The notes beneath the pieces were generated by a model, which was not told the origin of the DNA, searched no databases, and was given only the letters and a program-made list of their open reading frames with translations. DNA of 64,000 bases from NCBI RefSeq assembly GCF_014925385.1, contig NZ_JACSDK010000008.1:1-64000 (forward strand), given 5' to 3'. Shown one piece after another: positions 47,754 through 61,285 of the stretch; position 1 is the first letter of the stretch; each line of letters begins with the position of its first letter. Source of the DNA: Pelagibius marinus. Its GTDB lineage: Bacteria > Pseudomonadota > Alphaproteobacteria > Kiloniellales > Kiloniellaceae. The position numbers and the translations under genes are program-made.

Positions 47754-48881
47754 CTAGGCCAGCGGTTCCGGCACCTTTTCCGCCGCCGCCTCGCCCGCCT
47801 TGCGGGTGCGGTAGTGGAAAGCGGTTTCGTCCTTGGCGGACTCCGCCGTCGCCAGCGCCTGCATGGCCTCGTGCACGGGTGACTTGCCGCAGGCCGGGTC
47901 GACATTGCCCGCTTCCCCGGTCAAGGCGAAGGCCTGGCAGCGGCAACCGCCCCAGTCGATTTCCTTGCGCTCGCAGGAGCGGCAGGGCTCCGGCATCCAG
48001 TCGGTGCCGCGGTAGGCCTTGAAGGCCTCGGAGTTCTCCCAGATGTCGCGCAGGCTGCGGTCGGTCACCCGGTCGAAGGTGAGGCTGGTGATGGACTCCG
48101 CCGCATGACAGGGCAGCACCTTGCCCGCCGGCGAGATGTTGAGGAACTGCCGGCCCCAGCCGCCCATGCAGGATTTCGGGCGCCGGGCGTAGTAGTCGGG
48201 CACCACGTAGTCGATCACCATGACGCCCTTCAGCCGCGCGCGCGCCGCCTCGACGATCTCCGTCGCGCGTTCCAGCTGCGCGCGCGTCGGCATCAGGGAA
48301 GCGCGGTTCAGGTAGGCCCAGCCGTAGTACTGCACGTGGGCGATCTCGACCCGCTGGGCCTCCAGCTTCTCGGCCAGGGCCAGCATCTCCTCCAGGTGCT
48401 CCAGGTTCTGCCGGTGGACAACCATGTTAAGGGTCAGCGGCAGGCCGATCTCCTTTACCCAGCGCGCGCAGTCGAGCTTCTTCTCGAAGCCGCCCTTGTA
48501 GTTGCCGATGCGGTCGCAACCCGCCGCCTCGCTGTCCTGGAAAGAAAGCTGCAGGTGATCGAGTCCCGCCTCCGCCAGGGCGGCCAGGCGTTCCTTGCTC
48601 AAGAGCACGCCGGCGGTGATGAGGTTGGTGTAGAGCCCCTCGGCGGCCGAGGCCGCCACCAGGTCTTCCAGGTCGCGCCGCGCCGTGGGCTCGCCGCCGG
48701 AAAAATGGATCTGCAGCACGCCCAGCTCGGCGGCTTCCTTGATCACGGCCTTCCACTGCCCGGTGGAGAGCTCGGCGCTGCTCGCCTCCAGCGCCAGGGG
48801 GTTGGAACAGTAGGGGCACTGCAGCGGACAGCGGTGTGTCAGCTCGGCCAGGATGGCCAGGGGAAAGTTCAACTCTGTCAT
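47754..48881 (-). CDS. pqqE: PQQ biosynthesis radical SAM enzyme
   Basis: 375 aa. Radical SAM motif CPLQCPYC (C18/C22/C25 area) and a C-terminal SPASM domain with Cys in CRSCERKEIDWGGCRCQ. With PqqD it cross-links Glu and Tyr in the PqqA peptide, the first step of PQQ synthesis. Last gene of pqqABCDE, 10 bases after pqqD. Confidence 0.95.
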   Translation of the reverse strand: MTELNFPLAILAELTHRCPLQCPYCSNPLALEASSAELSTGQWKAVIKEAAELGVLQIHFSGGEPTARRDLEDLVAASAAEGLYTNLITAGVLLSKERLAALAEAGLDHLQLSFQDSEAAGCDRIGNYKGGFEKKLDCARWVKEIGLPLTLNMVVHRQNLEHLEEMLALAEKLEAQRVEIAHVQYYGWAYLNRASLMPTRAQLERATEIVEAARARLKGVMVIDYVVPDYYARRPKSCMGGWGRQFLNISPAGKVLPCHAAESITSLTFDRVTDRSLRDIWENSEAFKAYRGTDWMPEPCRSCERKEIDWGGCRCQAFALTGEAGNVDPACGKSPVHEAMQALATAESAKDETAFHYRTRKAGEAAAEKVPEPLA

Positions 48882-48891
48882 GTCGTCCCCC

Positions 48892-49179
48892 TCATGCTGC
48901 GAGAATCCGCTTGTCGGCCAGGTCCTGCAGCAGCGCGCCGACGTCCTTCAGGATCACGTCGCGCGGCGCCTCGAAGGTCCCCGCCAGGTCGTTCACGATC
49001 TCGCCCACAGAGGCCTTGCCGTCGCAGCGCTTGACGATCTCCAGCGCGATGCTGTCCAGCACGAAAAGCCGCTCCGGCGCCAGGATGACCCACTGGTCGC
49101 GCTGCTTGTCGAAGCGCAGCTTCACGCCGACCGGCAGGCCGGGCACCGAATCCTCGGTAATGGTGGTGCGCTCCGTCAT
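48892..49179 (-). CDS. pqqD: PqqA-binding chaperone PqqD
   Basis: 95-aa RiPP recognition element protein (VKLRFDKQRDQWVILAPERLF, IVKRCDGKASVGEIVNDLA). Presents PqqA to PqqE. ATG 49179 lies 2 bases after the pqqC stop. Confidence 0.93.
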   Translation of the reverse strand: MTERTTITEDSVPGLPVGVKLRFDKQRDQWVILAPERLFVLDSIALEIVKRCDGKASVGEIVNDLAGTFEAPRDVILKDVGALLQDLADKRILAA

Positions 49180-49181
49180 CC

Positions 49182-50015
49182 TCAGAGATCCAGCTCGGTC
49201 ACCGGCACCATGCCTTCCGGAACGAAGGCACCGGGCGGGATGTGGCCGGGGGCGACATAGGCGTGGTAGAGCGCGTCGAGCTGGGCCCAGAGCACATCCG
49301 TCTTGAAGCGCACGGCCGCGAGCACCTGTTCCTGCTGCTCGCGGGTGCGCGCCTCGCGCAGCACATAGCCCAGGCCGAACTTCACGTCCTTGGGCGCCTC
49401 GTCCAGGCGGCGCTTGAAATAGGCGATGGTGCGCTCGTTGGCGAAGTCGTAGTGCTCAAGCAGGCCGGCAATACGCTCCTGGTGGATCTTCGGCGCGAAG
49501 AGCTCGGTCAGCGAGGAGGCGATGGCCTCCAGCAGCGACTTCTCCCGCACGAAGCGCACATAGGCTTCCACGGCAAAGCGCGTGGCCGGCAGCATGCCGG
49601 CGCCGGACACCACGTAGGCGCGATCCAGCCCGACGCCCTCGGCCAGCATGAGCCAGCGTTCGATGCCGCCTTCGTTGCCTTCCTTGCCGTCGTGGTCCTC
49701 GATGCGCTTGCGCCATTCACGGCGCAGCTCCAGGTCCTCCATGCGCGACAGGATGGTCGCGTCCTTCAGCGGGATGTGGCTCTGGTAGCAGTAGCGGTTC
49801 AGCACCCAGGCCTGCACCTGGCCGTGGTTGCACTTGCCGCCGTGCAGCAGCTTGTGAAAGGGGTGCAGGGAGTGATAGCGCTCGGCGCCGATCTGGCGGA
49901 TGCGCTCCTCGAACTCGTCCTGCGGCAGCAGGCGGCCGAAAGGCGGCGCGGCCACGGGAGCCGGATCGATAGAAGCCACGGAAGGCGTTGCCGCAGAAGA
50001 GGTTGCCAGGGTCAT
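49182..50015 (-). CDS. pqqC: Pyrroloquinoline-quinone synthase
   Basis: 277 aa, all-helical oxidase that carries out the final ring closure and eight-electron oxidation. YHSLHPFHKLLHGGKCNHGQ, QSHIPLKDATILSRM and GGIERWL motifs carry the active-site His residues. ATG 50015 overlaps the pqqB stop (ATGA). The first ~25 residues are an Ala/Pro/Ser-rich extension. Confidence 0.94.
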   Translation of the reverse strand: MTLATSSAATPSVASIDPAPVAAPPFGRLLPQDEFEERIRQIGAERYHSLHPFHKLLHGGKCNHGQVQAWVLNRYCYQSHIPLKDATILSRMEDLELRREWRKRIEDHDGKEGNEGGIERWLMLAEGVGLDRAYVVSGAGMLPATRFAVEAYVRFVREKSLLEAIASSLTELFAPKIHQERIAGLLEHYDFANERTIAYFKRRLDEAPKDVKFGLGYVLREARTREQQEQVLAAVRFKTDVLWAQLDALYHAYVAPGHIPPGAFVPEGMVPVTELDL

Positions 50016-50959
50016 AACGTGATCTCCATGCCGTCGTAGGCGACTTCCCAGCCCGCCGCCTCGACCGCGGCCCGCTCGGCCGAGTCCGACAGCAGAATGG
50101 GGTTGGTGTTGTTGATGTGGATGAAGACCTTGCGGCCCACCGGGCTGTCGGCGAAGGTCGCCAGCGTGCCTTCGGGGCCGGAGAGGCTCATGTGGCCCAT
50201 GCGCCGGCCGGTCTTCACGCCGGCGCCCTGCACCTTCATCTCGTCGTCCTGCCACAGCGTGCCGTCGAACATCATCAGGTCTGCGCCTTTCATCTCCGCC
50301 TGCAGGACCGGCGACGGCGCGGCGCAGGCCGGCACGTAGAGAAAGCGGCGGCGGCTGCCGTTGCTGCCCGCCGTATTCTCGATGCGCAAAGCGATGGTGT
50401 CTTCCTCGACGGTGCCGAAGTTGCCGTTGCCGGCCTTCTCGTCTTCCAGATAGAGAGCCACCTTGCCGGGGATGGCGAAGGGCGTGATGGAGAGGCCCAA
50501 CGCCTCGCCCTCCTTGGTCGCCGGCGCGAAGGTCTCGCCCAGGCCGAGACGCCGGCGGTCGACGAACTTCGGATTGAGTACGTTGAAGATGGTGTTGTTC
50601 TCCAGCACCGACAGCACCCGGCTGGTGGCGTAGACCGCCAGGGGATGGCTCTCGCGCAGGGTCAGCAGGCCGGCCACGTGGTCGACGTCGCCGTTGGTCA
50701 GCACCACGGCGCGGATCGGGCTGTGGCGCACGCCGTCGCGGGGATGGAGTTGCGGATTGTCGTTGATCTGCTGGCGCAGGTCAGGTGAGGCGTTCAGCAG
50801 CACCCAGTTCTCGCCGTCGGCCGAGACCGCCACCGAGGACTGTGTGGACGGTCGCGCGAGCGGATCGCCGCGCCGCGCCCGCTGCGAGGCTTCGTTGTTG
50901 CTGTTCCACTGCGGGAAGCCGCCGCCGGCCGCCGCACCGAGCACCAAAACCTGTAGCAC
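50012..50959 (-). CDS. pqqB: PQQ biosynthesis oxygenase PqqB
   Basis: About 315-aa metallo-beta-lactamase-fold protein. LGAAAGGGFPQWNSN, TNGDVDHVAGLLTLRE (metal site) and MGHMSLSG are family motifs; it hydroxylates the cross-linked tyrosine. GTG 50959 is preferred because GGGGGAAGC precedes it and the family starts here; ATG at 50980 would add seven residues. Confidence 0.92.
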   Translation of the reverse strand: MLQVLVLGAAAGGGFPQWNSNNEASQRARRGDPLARPSTQSSVAVSADGENWVLLNASPDLRQQINDNPQLHPRDGVRHSPIRAVVLTNGDVDHVAGLLTLRESHPLAVYATSRVLSVLENNTIFNVLNPKFVDRRRLGLGETFAPATKEGEALGLSITPFAIPGKVALYLEDEKAGNGNFGTVEEDTIALRIENTAGSNGSRRRFLYVPACAAPSPVLQAEMKGADLMMFDGTLWQDDEMKVQGAGVKTGRRMGHMSLSGPEGTLATFADSPVGRKVFIHINNTNPILLSDSAERAAVEAAGWEVAYDGMEITL

Positions 50960-51142
50960 GCTTCCCCCAAGGATCGTCATGCCGGACACCAGCGCCGGCG
51001 CGACCCGCTTCCACCCGGCCATAGAGGCCGCCGGAGGCGCATCGGGAAGCTACGACTGCGCAAAGGAAAAAGGCCGGGCGTTCCGCCGAACAGGGTTCGA
51101 CAGCAATCCCGGCCTATCGATGCATTCCCCTTAGGGGAAGGA

Positions 51143-51220
51143 TCACAGATCCGCGCAGGCGTAGCTGTTGATTTCCATGCCGACGGAGATCTCGATAACT
51201 TTAGGGGTTGTCCAGCTCAT
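51143..51220 (-). CDS. pqqA: PQQ precursor peptide
   Basis: 25-aa peptide. The Glu16-x3-Tyr20 pair in GMEINSYACADL is the substrate for cross-linking. A strong AGAGGAGGAAAG ribosome site precedes ATG 51220. First gene of pqqABCDE, 183 bases before pqqB. Confidence 0.93.
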   Translation of the reverse strand: MSWTTPKVIEISVGMEINSYACADL

Positions 51221-57531: not shown

Positions 57532-57972
57532 ATGGCTGATGTCAAACATCACGCAAACCACAGCGTCCGCGTATCTATCCCAATGTCGGTCGCATCCGAC
57601 ATCGGCAAGTTCAAGGAGACACTGGGCAGCATTCTCGACAGGCTCGGCTGCCCAGCCTGCTGTTCGGCGCACGATATCTATTTCGAGATGCAGCGTGACT
57701 TCCGGTTTGACGGTGATCTGGATATCGCCCAAGCGGCCTTCGCACCAAAGCGCCTTGCGGCGGCCGCCTCCGTCCCCGTTGTGTCGGCCAGCCTCTCGCC
57801 GAAGCTGGCGGGTAATATCAAGGAGGTGTTCAGTGCGCTCGACCGTATTGTCGACCTCAGCGCACACCCCGCATGCACTTCGGGAGATGACCTCTTCCTG
57901 AGGGTCGAGAGCAACTTCTTGATCAACAGTGCCGGCCAGCTCGATGAGCAGGCACTGGTCATTGGCCGGTAA
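57532..57972 (+). CDS. Cys-motif repeat protein, candidate MNIO-modified RiPP precursor
   Basis: 146 aa with a strong GGAGG seven bases before ATG 57532. No signal peptide. Two diverged internal repeats: LDRLGCPACCSAHDIYFEM (35-53) and LDR (103-105) followed by PACTSGDDLFLRV (113-125). Shared residues are P-A-C-[CT]-S-[AG]-x-D-[IL]-[YF]-[FL]; cysteines are C40, C43, C44 and C115. Its 3' end overlaps the MNIO gene by 29 bases. By analogy to known MNIO clusters it is a substrate or carrier; a partner-protein role is the main alternative. I do not recognise the family. Confidence 0.6.
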   Translation: MADVKHHANHSVRVSIPMSVASDIGKFKETLGSILDRLGCPACCSAHDIYFEMQRDFRFDGDLDIAQAAFAPKRLAAAASVPVVSASLSPKLAGNIKEVFSALDRIVDLSAHPACTSGDDLFLRVESNFLINSAGQLDEQALVIGR

Positions 57973-59422
57973 GAACCGGTTCCGGCCCCCAAAGCTGGGG
58001 GCCGGTATGATCTACACTCCTGCGCTACGCTCGTTTCTGCAGCCGCGTATCGATAGGTTAGGCGTGCTCGAGGTCGAGCCGCAGACGATGTGGCTGGCCG
58101 AAGATGCGATCGACGGGCCGTTTCGCGAGAACTTCGACTTCATCGAAGCGATCGCCGCCCTGCCCGTCGCCAAGCTGGTCCACAGCGTCGGCGCGCCGCT
58201 GGGCGGTACGCGCCGGCCGAACCCGGATCAGATTGCGCTGATCCGCGCGACGGCGGACCGGCTGGACAGCCCCTGGGTGAGCGAGCACCTCAGCGTTGCC
58301 GGCACACCGCACCGATCGGCGGGTTTCCTGCTGCCGCCGCTGCAGACGCCCGAGGGCGTCGAGACGGCGGCGAAGAATATCCGCATCTTTGCGGAGGGCA
58401 TCGGCCGCCCTGTCGCCATCGAGACCGGCGTGTCCTATGTCGGCCGGAAGCCGTTCGAGATGGCGGACGGCGAATTCGTCGCTGCGGTGGCAGAGACCGC
58501 CGATTGCGGAATCTTGCTGGATCTGCACAACGTCTACTGCAATGAGCGCAACGGGCGCACGACACTCGATACCTATGTTGAGGCACTCCCGCTGGACCGC
58601 GTATGGGAGATCCACCTGGCGGGGGGAAACGAGGCGGAGGGCGTGTGGCTCGACGCCCATTGCGGCCAGATGCCGCCGGATCTTGCAGTGCGGGCCCGCG
58701 ACATCATCCGGGCCCTGCCCAACCTCGGCGCGGTCAACTACGAGATCTATGAGACTTTTCTCGCGGACATGCCGGAGAGCACCCTCGAAGCGATCCTTGA
58801 CGAGCTGGAGGACCTCTGGGGCGAAGCCGGGCGGGCAAGCACGGCAAGCAGCGGGGAAGCCGAGCGCCGCCCGAGCCCGCCCCCCGACATCGCAGAGCGC
58901 CCCTCCCCCAGCGCGTGGGAAGAAGGCATGACACAGGCGGTCTGGCAGGGAACACCCGACTGTCATCCCTTCCCGGACGACACCGCAGCAATACGGCTCT
59001 ATGCCCGCCTGGCGCGCAGTTTCCGCGGCTCGATGATGCTGAGGGTGCTCAGCCGGTCTCTGCGGTACCTGATCCTGCGCGAGGCCGATCGTGGCGACGC
59101 CATTCTGGAACGATACTTCAAGGCGGTATCGCCCAAGCTGTATGCGCATCTCGAAGCCAAGGCATTCCGCGACTGGGTGACCCAGGCGGGCGAAGCCGAT
59201 CCGCTGCTCGAGGCGCTCATGGACTACGACATCGTCATGGTCGAAATGTTGGCGGATCCGCGCCCGCGCGAGGTCAGGTTCCCCGGTGACCCGCGCCCGG
59301 TTTTCGAAGCCCTTGCCGCATCCCAGCTCCCCAAGTTCCCCGAGCCGCCCGCCTGGGAAATCGAGATCCTGCCCGATCAGGGCCAAACCTCGGCCTTCCG
59401 GGGGATCGATTCAGGAAGCTGA
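57944..59422 (+). CDS. MNIO (DUF692) multinuclear iron oxidase with extra C-terminal domain
   Basis: 492 aa. Residues ~18-295 are a DUF692 TIM barrel: LEVEP (E43/E45), HSVGAPLGG (H80), WVSEHLS (E114/H115), IETGVSYV (E160), LLDLHNVYCN (D193/H195/N196), EIHLAGG (H224), LDAHCGQ (D237/H239), VNYEIYE (E267). The usual DVNNVY is DLHNVY here. A Pro/Glu-rich linker (296-325) leads to a ~145-residue C-terminal domain not recognised. ATG 57944 keeps the first barrel strand (LGAGMIY); ATG 58007 would cut it. MNIO enzymes oxidise Cys or other residues in RiPP precursors. Confidence 0.78.
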   Translation: MSRHWSLAGKNRFRPPKLGAGMIYTPALRSFLQPRIDRLGVLEVEPQTMWLAEDAIDGPFRENFDFIEAIAALPVAKLVHSVGAPLGGTRRPNPDQIALIRATADRLDSPWVSEHLSVAGTPHRSAGFLLPPLQTPEGVETAAKNIRIFAEGIGRPVAIETGVSYVGRKPFEMADGEFVAAVAETADCGILLDLHNVYCNERNGRTTLDTYVEALPLDRVWEIHLAGGNEAEGVWLDAHCGQMPPDLAVRARDIIRALPNLGAVNYEIYETFLADMPESTLEAILDELEDLWGEAGRASTASSGEAERRPSPPPDIAERPSPSAWEEGMTQAVWQGTPDCHPFPDDTAAIRLYARLARSFRGSMMLRVLSRSLRYLILREADRGDAILERYFKAVSPKLYAHLEAKAFRDWVTQAGEADPLLEALMDYDIVMVEMLADPRPREVRFPGDPRPVFEALAASQLPKFPEPPAWEIEILPDQGQTSAFRGIDSGS

Positions 59423-59453: not shown

Positions 59454-59490
59454 AAGAGGCCCCGGCGCGCCAACGCCGGGGCCTCTTTCT
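59454..59490. terminator. Strong bidirectional terminator
   Basis: Perfect 14-bp stem AAGAGGCCCCGGCG / CGCCGGGGCCTCTT with a 6-base loop and T-rich flanks on both sides. Lies between the convergent MNIO and xsc genes and isolates the MNIO unit. Confidence 0.9.
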
Positions 59491-59509: not shown

Positions 59510-61285
59510 TCAGGCCGGGGCCTGCGGGCGCATGTCCTTGGGGTCGATGCCGGCGACCGCGACCGGCTTCTTCATGGCGTCGCGGCGGAAGGGCTCGCCC
59601 AGTTCCTGGTTCAGAATCACCTCGATGAAGGTGGTGACGCCGTCGTCCTGCGCTTTGCAGGCCGTTTGCAGGGCGTCCGTCAGTTCTTTCTGGGTTTTGA
59701 CGGTGACGCCCTTCAGGCCGCAGCCCTCGGCGACGCGCGCGTAGCTGAGGTGCGGGTCCAGCTCGGTGCCGACGAAGTTGTCGTCGTACCACAGCGTCGT
59801 GTTGCGCTTCTCCGCGCCCCACTGATAGTTGCGGAACACCACCATGGTGATGGCCGGCCACTCCGCGCGGCCGACCGAGGACATCTCGTTCATGGAGATG
59901 CCGAAGGCGCCGTCGCCGGCGAAGCCGACCACCGGCACGTCGGGACAGCCGATCTTGGCGCCGATGATCGAGGGGAAGCCGTATCCGCAGGGGCCGAAGA
60001 GGCCCGGGGCCAGGTACTTGCGGCCTTCCTCGAAGGTCGGATAGGCGTTGCCGATGGCGCAGTTGTTGCCGATGTCGGAGGAGATGATGGCGTTCTTCGG
60101 CAGGCCCGCCTGGATCGCCCGCCAGGCCTGGCGCGGCGACATGCGGTCGGCGTCGCGTGCACGCGCGCGCTCGTTCCAGGTGGTGCCGGGATCGTCGTCC
60201 TCGTGGTCCATGGAGGAGAGCGCCTGCAGCCAGGCCGACTTGGTCTGGTGGATGAGGGCCTTGCGCTCCTCGCGCCCGGCGTTGCCGGCCTCGGGCGAGA
60301 GCTGCTCCAGCAGCTGCTCGGCGACCAGCCTGGCGTCGCCCTGGATGCCGACCGAGACCTTCTTGGTCAGGCCGATGCGGTCGGCGTTGATGTCGACCTG
60401 GATGATGGCCGCGTCCTTGGGCCAGTAGTCGATGCCGTAGCCCGGCAGCGTCGAGAAGGGATTGAGCCGGGTGCCCAGCGCCAGCACCACGTCGGCCTTG
60501 GCGATCAGCTCCATGGCCGCCTTGGAGCCGTTGTAGCCCAGCGGCCCGGCGAAGAGCGGGTGCGAGCCCGGGAAGGCGTCGTTGTGCTGATAGCCGCAGC
60601 AGACCGGCGCGTCGAGGCGCTCGGCCAGGGCCTGGGAGGCGGGGATGGCGCCGCCGATGACCACGCCGGCGCCGTTCAGGATCACCGGGAACTTGGCCCC
60701 GGAGAGCAGCCTGGCGGCCTCGGCGATGGCGCGCTTGCCGCCGGCCGGGCGCTCGATGCGTACGATCTGCGGCAGCTCGATGTCGATCACCTGGGTCCAG
60801 TAGTCGCGCGGCACGTTGATCTGCGCCGGGGCCGAGCCGCGCCAGGCCTTCTCGATCACCCGGTTCAGCACCTCGGCGATGCGCGTGGGGTCGCGCACCT
60901 CTTCCTGGTAGCAGACCATTTCGCGGAACATCGGCATCTGGTCGACTTCCTGGAAGCCGCCCTGGCCGATGGTCTTGTTGGCGGCCTGCGGGGTGACCAG
61001 CAGCATCGGCGTGTGGTTCCAGTAGGCGGTCTTGACGGCGGTGACGAAGCCGGTGACGCCCGGGCCGTTCTGGGCAATGGCCATGGCCATCTTGCCGGTC
61101 GAGCGGGTGTAGCCGTCACAGATCAGGCCGCCGTTGGTCTCGTGGGCGACATCCCAGAAGGTGATCCCGGCCTTGGGGAAAAGGTCCGAAATCGGCATGA
61201 AGGCCGAGCCGATGATCCCGAAGCCGTGCTCGATGCCGTGCATCTGCAGGACCTTCACAAAGGCTTCCTCGGTCGTCATTTTCAT
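59510..61285 (-). CDS. xsc: Sulfoacetaldehyde acetyltransferase
   Basis: 591-aa thiamine diphosphate enzyme. Catalytic Glu49 (HETNGG), TPP motif GDGAFGISMNEMS and the Xsc-typical VFRNYQWGAEKRNTTLWY region. Converts sulfoacetaldehyde and phosphate to acetyl phosphate and sulfite in taurine and related sulfonate breakdown. No taurine transporter, Tpa or pta is adjacent. ATG 61285 has GAGGAATC upstream. Confidence 0.92.
   Translation of the reverse strand: MKMTTEEAFVKVLQMHGIEHGFGIIGSAFMPISDLFPKAGITFWDVAHETNGGLICDGYTRSTGKMAMAIAQNGPGVTGFVTAVKTAYWNHTPMLLVTPQAANKTIGQGGFQEVDQMPMFREMVCYQEEVRDPTRIAEVLNRVIEKAWRGSAPAQINVPRDYWTQVIDIELPQIVRIERPAGGKRAIAEAARLLSGAKFPVILNGAGVVIGGAIPASQALAERLDAPVCCGYQHNDAFPGSHPLFAGPLGYNGSKAAMELIAKADVVLALGTRLNPFSTLPGYGIDYWPKDAAIIQVDINADRIGLTKKVSVGIQGDARLVAEQLLEQLSPEAGNAGREERKALIHQTKSAWLQALSSMDHEDDDPGTTWNERARARDADRMSPRQAWRAIQAGLPKNAIISSDIGNNCAIGNAYPTFEEGRKYLAPGLFGPCGYGFPSIIGAKIGCPDVPVVGFAGDGAFGISMNEMSSVGRAEWPAITMVVFRNYQWGAEKRNTTLWYDDNFVGTELDPHLSYARVAEGCGLKGVTVKTQKELTDALQTACKAQDDGVTTFIEVILNQELGEPFRRDAMKKPVAVAGIDPKDMRPQAPA

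Follow-up and report, generated by a model that had tools for sequence, protein, structure and literature searches.

A conserved two-gene MNIO locus in Pelagibius marinus with a probable partner domain fused to its enzyme

The locus analysed here raises the question of whether a small cysteine-containing protein and the MNIO enzyme encoded directly after it belong together, and of how such an enzyme could work with no partner gene at its side. Both genes lie near the end of a 64,000-nucleotide stretch of the Pelagibius marinus genome, referred to as the window. The original prediction, made from the letters of the window, saw in them a candidate undescribed RiPP system. The reading that we consider fairly probable is a self-contained MNIO modification unit, in which the small cytosolic protein would be the substrate and the enzyme an oxidase carrying its own fused partner.

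The small protein and its conserved pairing with the enzyme

The small Cys-motif protein (57532-57972, + strand) is a putative MNIO substrate of 146 aa, and the two repeats first noticed in it are confirmed. Both were matched by a repeat HMM with 64.4 and 29.8 bits against at most 12.7 bits in 1000 shuffles, the HMM resting on nine repeats taken from six further loci, all outside the window's genus. The higher score belongs to repeat 1 (residues 12-65; 57565-57726, +), which is of the C-type with a GCPACCSAHD core (G39, C40, C43, S45 and D48), and the lower one to repeat 2 (residues 84-132; 57781-57927, +), of the H-type with HPACTSGDD (H112, C115 and D120). The small proteins have no significant Pfam or NCBIfam match (best line at E 0.086), and among solved structures none significantly matches the small protein or the repeat (best E 0.75 and 0.13 respectively). 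A single-sequence structure model of the small protein reached a pLDDT of 34.6, which is unreliable, and was set aside.

These two kinds of repeat, C-type (GCxxCxSxxD) and H-type (HPxC), recur among the nine precursors of the subfamily described below. The C-type is found as a single copy per precursor in eight of them, and its G-C-x-x-C-x-S-x-x-D pattern is invariant in the 8/8 rows of the alignment (A7). GCxxCxS is present in all nine precursors and the D in eight, the exception being the G1599 precursor, a weak match of 22 bits whose GCPECCSGFP keeps the Cys and has lost the D. The H-type accompanies the C-type in 5/9 precursors, on either side of it, and has N in place of D in that of G1553. 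Hence, of the residues originally named for a check of conservation, C43 and D48 stand, whereas C44 does not, as position 44 is C, H or T across eight precursors, and C40 had been overlooked; the conserved Cys are C40 and C43 in repeat 1 and C115 in repeat 2. None of the nine precursors has a strongly hydrophobic N-terminal stretch (11-residue Kyte-Doolittle maximum of 1.24, by hydropathy only), and given this absence the product of any modification would probably stay in the cytoplasm. Two of the nine share a LNPQPLPP stretch, located at the N terminus in Mycolicibacterium (L007:5787-6005) and in a linker in G553 (L044:1468-1902); it may be a recognition element, and no mention of it was found in the open-licence literature.

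The expected co-occurrence of both genes in other genomes was borne out. Recovered both by starting from the enzyme and by starting from the precursor, the pair is found in nine genomes of three phyla, with a gene for a GCxxCxS protein just upstream of the enzyme in 9/9 subfamily loci. The repeat HMM, to which six of the nine loci supplied repeats (the window, its sister species G004 and G1599 did not), matches in 9/9 of these loci at E 2.6e-5 or better versus 0/61 other MNIO loci at E < 0.05. One of the 61 (L058) contains the bare GCxxCxSxxD pattern, with 11.2 bits and on the strand that does not encode its MNIO. In a tree of 70 MNIO domains, made by a quick method and carrying a long-branch warning, the nine members are on one branch separate from the 61 others with an SH-aLRT support of 100. 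Between the stop of the small gene and the conserved LGxG of the enzyme lie 11-78 bases in eight loci; the Anaerolineales locus has a longer gap, of 220. The two genes are a real, conserved pair; that they are chance neighbours without joint function is refuted by this recurrence in nine genomes of three phyla, and we give that idea next to no weight.

The pair is rare in the samples searched. Counting the window's genome in each case, close copies of both genes are found in 2/98 relatives and the cassette in 2/8 genomes of the genus. Repeat profiles returned 1/400 genomes in the phylum of G099 (G099 itself), 3/396 in the phylum of G098 (G098, G553 and G595) and 2/398 in the window's phylum, namely the window and a false match. 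The latter (G1244, E 9.8e-4) was rejected, its frame being antisense to a long ribonuclease-E-like ORF with no MNIO in the 3-kb locus, as judged by eye. Searches with the enzyme, in samples that overlap the genomes already counted with the repeat profiles, gave further members as G098 and G1308 of 151, G553 and G1553 of 151, G595 of 36, and G099 and G1599 of 150; a GTDB contig scan showed the pair in 2/2 relatives, Mycolicibacterium wolinskyi and an Anaerolineales MAG. In these searches subfamily enzymes are found at E 3.8e-122 or better versus 4.6e-39 or worse for the other MNIOs listed. The rarity is an estimate, as scoring in large genomes covered 10 to 17 first-look candidates. Plasmids gave no match to the small protein of the window at an E limit of 0.1 or to the Chloroflexota one at a limit of 1, and the enzyme matches 352 records, none over more than 80% of its length. 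Viral contigs gave 36 pattern matches and 0 relatives.

Both genes are under purifying selection relative to the sister species G004, with a dN/dS of ~ 0.15 (0.114/0.736) for the enzyme gene and ~ 0.06 (0.061/0.956) for the small one. The latter bears on a different reading of the pair, which we regard as unlikely, whereby the enzyme would have its true substrate elsewhere and the small protein would assist it in the cytosol as a metal- or redox-active partner (a metal donor, an adaptor or a regulator). CxxC and HxxC are common metal-binding spacings, and both are found here; stronger conservation than that of its enzyme is unusual for a RiPP precursor; and no transporter or protease is common to the loci, as inspected by eye in six stretches. 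Weighing against it, the small protein is present with each of the nine subfamily enzymes, no other recurrent candidate substrate was seen by eye beside the pair, and its size and gene order fit MNIO precursors, as a small gene before the MNIO gene is the order reported for them in PMC12452194. We thus prefer the small protein as the substrate, while a metal or disulfide site that stays unmodified would explain the conserved CxxC as well. In one locus (L089:8692-10758, genome G1308) a trypsin-like serine-protease ORF, so named by eye, lies directly 3' of the pair; it was unseen in the other loci inspected.

The enzyme: start, iron site and C-terminal domain

The enzyme gene (57944-59422, +) encodes 492 aa when read from the ATG at 57944, with an alternative TTG start at 57962. 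The former is not a start codon in G004 whereas the TTG is conserved there, in a comparison limited to starts ahead of the conserved LGxG. The 29-base overlap first described between the two genes is therefore doubtful, and the overlap is probably 11 bases. The enzyme matches PF05114 at residues 78-245 with an E of 1.3e-37 and 130 bits (cut-off 25), and it is far below the cut-offs of all five NCBIfam MNIO models that it matches, with 111.6 bits versus 310 for BufB, 65.7 versus 400 for ApyH, 42.3 versus 600 for ChrH, 87.4 versus 360 for HvfB and 18.3 versus 325 for MbnB. By these profile scores it is a divergent MNIO and, with residues 320-492 as an extra C-terminal part, it agrees with what had been predicted.

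The catalytic barrel extends from L18 to about residue 291 (57995-58816, +). According to PMC10880893, the iron ligands of TglH are H71, H107, E151, D184, N187, H216, D229, H231 and E258; aligned to TglH, all nine map onto the enzyme, as H80, H115, E160, D193, N196, H224, D237, H239 and E267, and are identical in 9/9 subfamily enzymes. The surroundings of the site differ from those of other MNIOs. Indeed, the bridging Glu is followed by Thr-Gly in 9/9 subfamily enzymes; among the 61 other MNIOs the first of these two positions is Asn in 59 and the second is Gly in none, the E267 column itself being gapped in the alignment rows of these 61. Moreover, the position of TglH Asn73, essential for beta-carbon excision, is V82 in the window's enzyme (V in eight and I in one of the nine), which disfavours the Tgl reaction. 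A structure model of the enzyme made from a three-sequence alignment has a mean pLDDT of 64.0, with a mostly confident barrel whose nearest solved fold is TglH (E 2.6e-19, TM-score by target of 0.80). The 50 fold matches listed are, by title, MNIO, sugar-isomerase and endonuclease IV entries, the C-terminal part of the model being of low confidence.

The C-terminal domain (residues 320-492; 58901-59419, +) is DUF2063-like and a probable fused partner. A profile of eight C-terminal domains compared by hhalign with one of 30 DUF2063-type partners, the usual separate partner of MNIOs, gave a score of 40.1 (E 1.7e-5, probability 78%) over 72 columns. By comparison, 40 column shuffles scored no higher than 17.3 and 26 flanking-ORF clusters no higher than 19.2; the clusters are a rough control, as one that mixes MNIO and partner ORFs scored just 14.8. 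With '-glob 0' the score was 31.1 (E 7.5e-6, probability 66%) over 168 columns, the shuffles having been run without this option. The region matched starts at the helix preceding 'Y...P' and reaches the 'F' and 'P.L' positions, which are conserved. A DUF2063-partner HMM matches the C-terminal region in 4/8 enzymes when run on the set of eight (those of G1308, G1553, G553 and Mycolicibacterium), and these four matches weaken to E 0.02-0.97 in a larger locus set; on the window's own enzyme it gave no match (E 1.1, set of eight). None of the eight domains reaches the curated Pfam DUF2063 cut-off, one of them being found at E 0.047 and the window's not at all, and no solved MNIO partner was matched by the C-terminal domains in a sequence search. 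In the structure model 13/18 ten-residue blocks of this region have a pLDDT below 60; it ends in a strand-helix-strand arrangement of low to medium confidence, which might be a shortened RRE. Taken together, the domain seems to be remotely related to DUF2063. The Mycolicibacterium enzyme has a shortened version of the domain (L007:6943-7308), with a sudden divergence close to its end that looks like an interrupted frame. A comparison with mycobacterial partner-like ORFs (24.5, E 0.016) was discarded as the iterated family had drifted to 90 ORFs, many of them out of frame by eye.

In the window's class, 30/31 MNIO loci contain a DUF2063-type ORF, which in L011 is fused to the MNIO, and none is beside the pair of the window or of G004. 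The Pelagibius marinus genome itself has three further MNIOs (L001-L003), each with an adjoining DUF2063-type partner ORF. In the nine subfamily loci (stretches of 3.4-16 kb), the partner HMM, made from PME-type 1 partners, found no separate DUF2063 ORF, its sole output being weak matches to the enzymes themselves. This HMM was built from the loci of the class and is unreliable for PME-type 2 partners; it also matched 0/30 ordinary Actinomycetota MNIO loci, so that partner absence is telling in the window's class only and says little in that phylum. For these two reasons, the origin of the HMM and its 0/30 in Actinomycetota, our confidence in the self-contained unit is slightly reduced and stands at fairly probable. 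In genome G070, the L011 locus has an ordinary MNIO naturally fused to DUF2063 in a 571-aa frame, preceded by a Cys-rich ORF whose start, judged by eye, resembles a signal peptide.

The C-terminal domain could instead serve for dimerisation or have an activity of its own, with recognition falling to the catalytic domain or to some other type of partner that escaped notice. The remoteness of the DUF2063 similarity, the weak model in this region and the unreliability of the HMM for PME-type 2 partners all leave room for it, but the profile match is well above the shuffles and spans the region from the 'Y...P' helix to 'F' and 'P.L', and we hold this explanation to be quite unlikely. The original suggestion that the C-terminal domain replaces the partner thus gains from its resemblance to DUF2063-type partners, and a built-in partner role is supported, not proven.

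Surroundings of the two genes

A hairpin of 14 pairs (59454-59487) lies between the enzyme gene and a convergent gene for a TPP-dependent enzyme (59510-61285, -) with three Pfam TPP domains and 85% identity to Azospirillum plasmid genes annotated xsc, sulfoacetaldehyde acetyltransferase. It had been taken for a strong terminator closing the unit, which is not what the comparison suggests. Indeed, a terminator scan of the window gives 2 terminator-like sites versus a mean of 2.1 in shuffles. In G004, where the TPP enzyme is 98% identical and ~ 7 kb from the MNIO pair, inspection by eye shows no comparable T-tailed hairpin past the MNIO gene and a similar one at the 3' end of the TPP-enzyme gene. 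Given this placement, the hairpin is probably the terminator of the minus-strand, xsc-like TPP-enzyme gene rather than a dedicated end of the unit.

The 236-aa gene upstream is present in 6/7 sister genomes. In five cassette-free sister stretches (L098-L102) none of eight other window proteins was found, so that a clean empty site was not recognisable. Further away, a pqqA-like ORF of 25 aa (51143-51220, -; by eye) is near lactamase-fold (Pfam), PqqC-like and radical-SAM-like ORFs (50012-51022, 49182-50255 and 47754-48881, all -), the names in this region other than the Pfam matches having been assigned by eye. From its gene content, the region 47754-51220 looks like a PQQ cluster and would be a second peptide-modification system in the window.

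Proposed working and comparison with known systems

The self-contained unit is supported by the conserved pairing, the conserved iron ligands and the partner-like C-terminal domain, and from these we infer the modification of the small protein, the target Cys, the product and a role of metal, as follows. The enzyme would be a di- or tri-iron oxidase with a recognition partner of DUF2063-like helices, and perhaps a shortened RRE, fused at its C terminus. The strand and helix ahead of the motif would dock on this fused domain, which would present the small protein to the active site. The Cys that the two repeat types have in common, C43 in repeat 1 and C115 in repeat 2, would bind iron and be turned by oxidation with O2 into a heterocycle such as an oxazolone/thioamide or a thiooxazole, the Cys products listed for oxazolins and bufferins in PMC12452194. 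The CxxC (and HxxC) site with its modified Cys would then probably bind a metal inside the cytoplasm. A bolder proposal, which we put forward tentatively and rather doubt, is that this deep MNIO clade modifies a folded cytosolic protein and not a peptide, in a single chain with a built-in partner and a Thr-Gly active site, perhaps by a new reaction on a CxxC/HxxC metal site used in place.

Two genes, one of them for an MNIO chain with its partner built in, would make about the smallest MNIO system to study, and the role of DUF2063-type partners could be addressed in it by trimming a single protein. Which MNIOs work without separate partners is a question left open in PMC12452194, and the present clade may provide an answer. 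Should the folded small protein indeed be the product, MNIOs would act on proteins, a possibility that the survey raises and of which we saw no test in its accessible part.

The word "undescribed" in the original prediction is doubtful, given that small CxxC and CxxCC families beside MNIOs are already listed in PMC12452194, a 2025 survey, and one of them may be the present family. The accessible part of the survey holds no mention that we found of an MNIO fused to its partner, and no other description of an MNIO-DUF2063 fusion or of this pair was recognised in the open-licence literature. The survey lists adjamnio-IV, a CxxCC family of 119-146 aa with 5-6 Cys and 10 sequences, given as 'Adjamnio-IV - MNIO' with no partner, and adjamnio-7, a small CxxC family beside an MNIO with no signal peptide. 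That the precursor belongs to adjamnio-IV (or adjamnio-7) and is new only in the fusion is, in our view, an evenly balanced matter; it concerns naming and is compatible with the self-contained unit. By description alone, the window's protein resembles adjamnio-IV in its CxxCC (CPACC), its 146 aa and its place beside an MNIO, and the precursors of G553 (145 aa) and G1553 (143 aa when read from an internal Met), with 5 Cys and CxxCC, fit that family in length, Cys number and motif. Three relatives of the window's precursor have 5 Cys. In contrast, the window's protein has 4 Cys against the 5-6 of adjamnio-IV, and three relatives of 69-78 aa lack CxxCC and contain 2 Cys.

Among characterised systems, TglHI (3-thiaglutamate; TglH PDB 8hci/8hi7) has the closest solved fold, the same nine iron ligands and the LDLHN and HLAGG motifs; it differs from the present locus, where no separate TglI-like gene is seen, V82 replaces Asn73 and the motif is internal, in contrast to the C-terminal Cys of the TglHI substrate. 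The bufferin maturases BufBC are alike in having a PF05114 enzyme after a precursor gene and a DUF2063-type partner, whereas here the BufB score is below one half of its cut-off, the precursor has no hydrophobic N-terminus and a separate DUF2063 ORF is not seen. MovX, of the Vibrio methanobactin-like system, is also described as an MNIO that needs no separate partner and has an extra domain; according to PMC12452194, this domain is a winged helix-turn-helix and the target a C-terminal Asn, unlike the DUF2063-like domain and Cys-based motif found here. Finally, the L011 fusion likewise combines MNIO and DUF2063 in a single chain, but it has a standard-type MNIO, a clear DUF2063 match and an oxazolin-like locus, and it is off the branch that holds the nine subfamily members.
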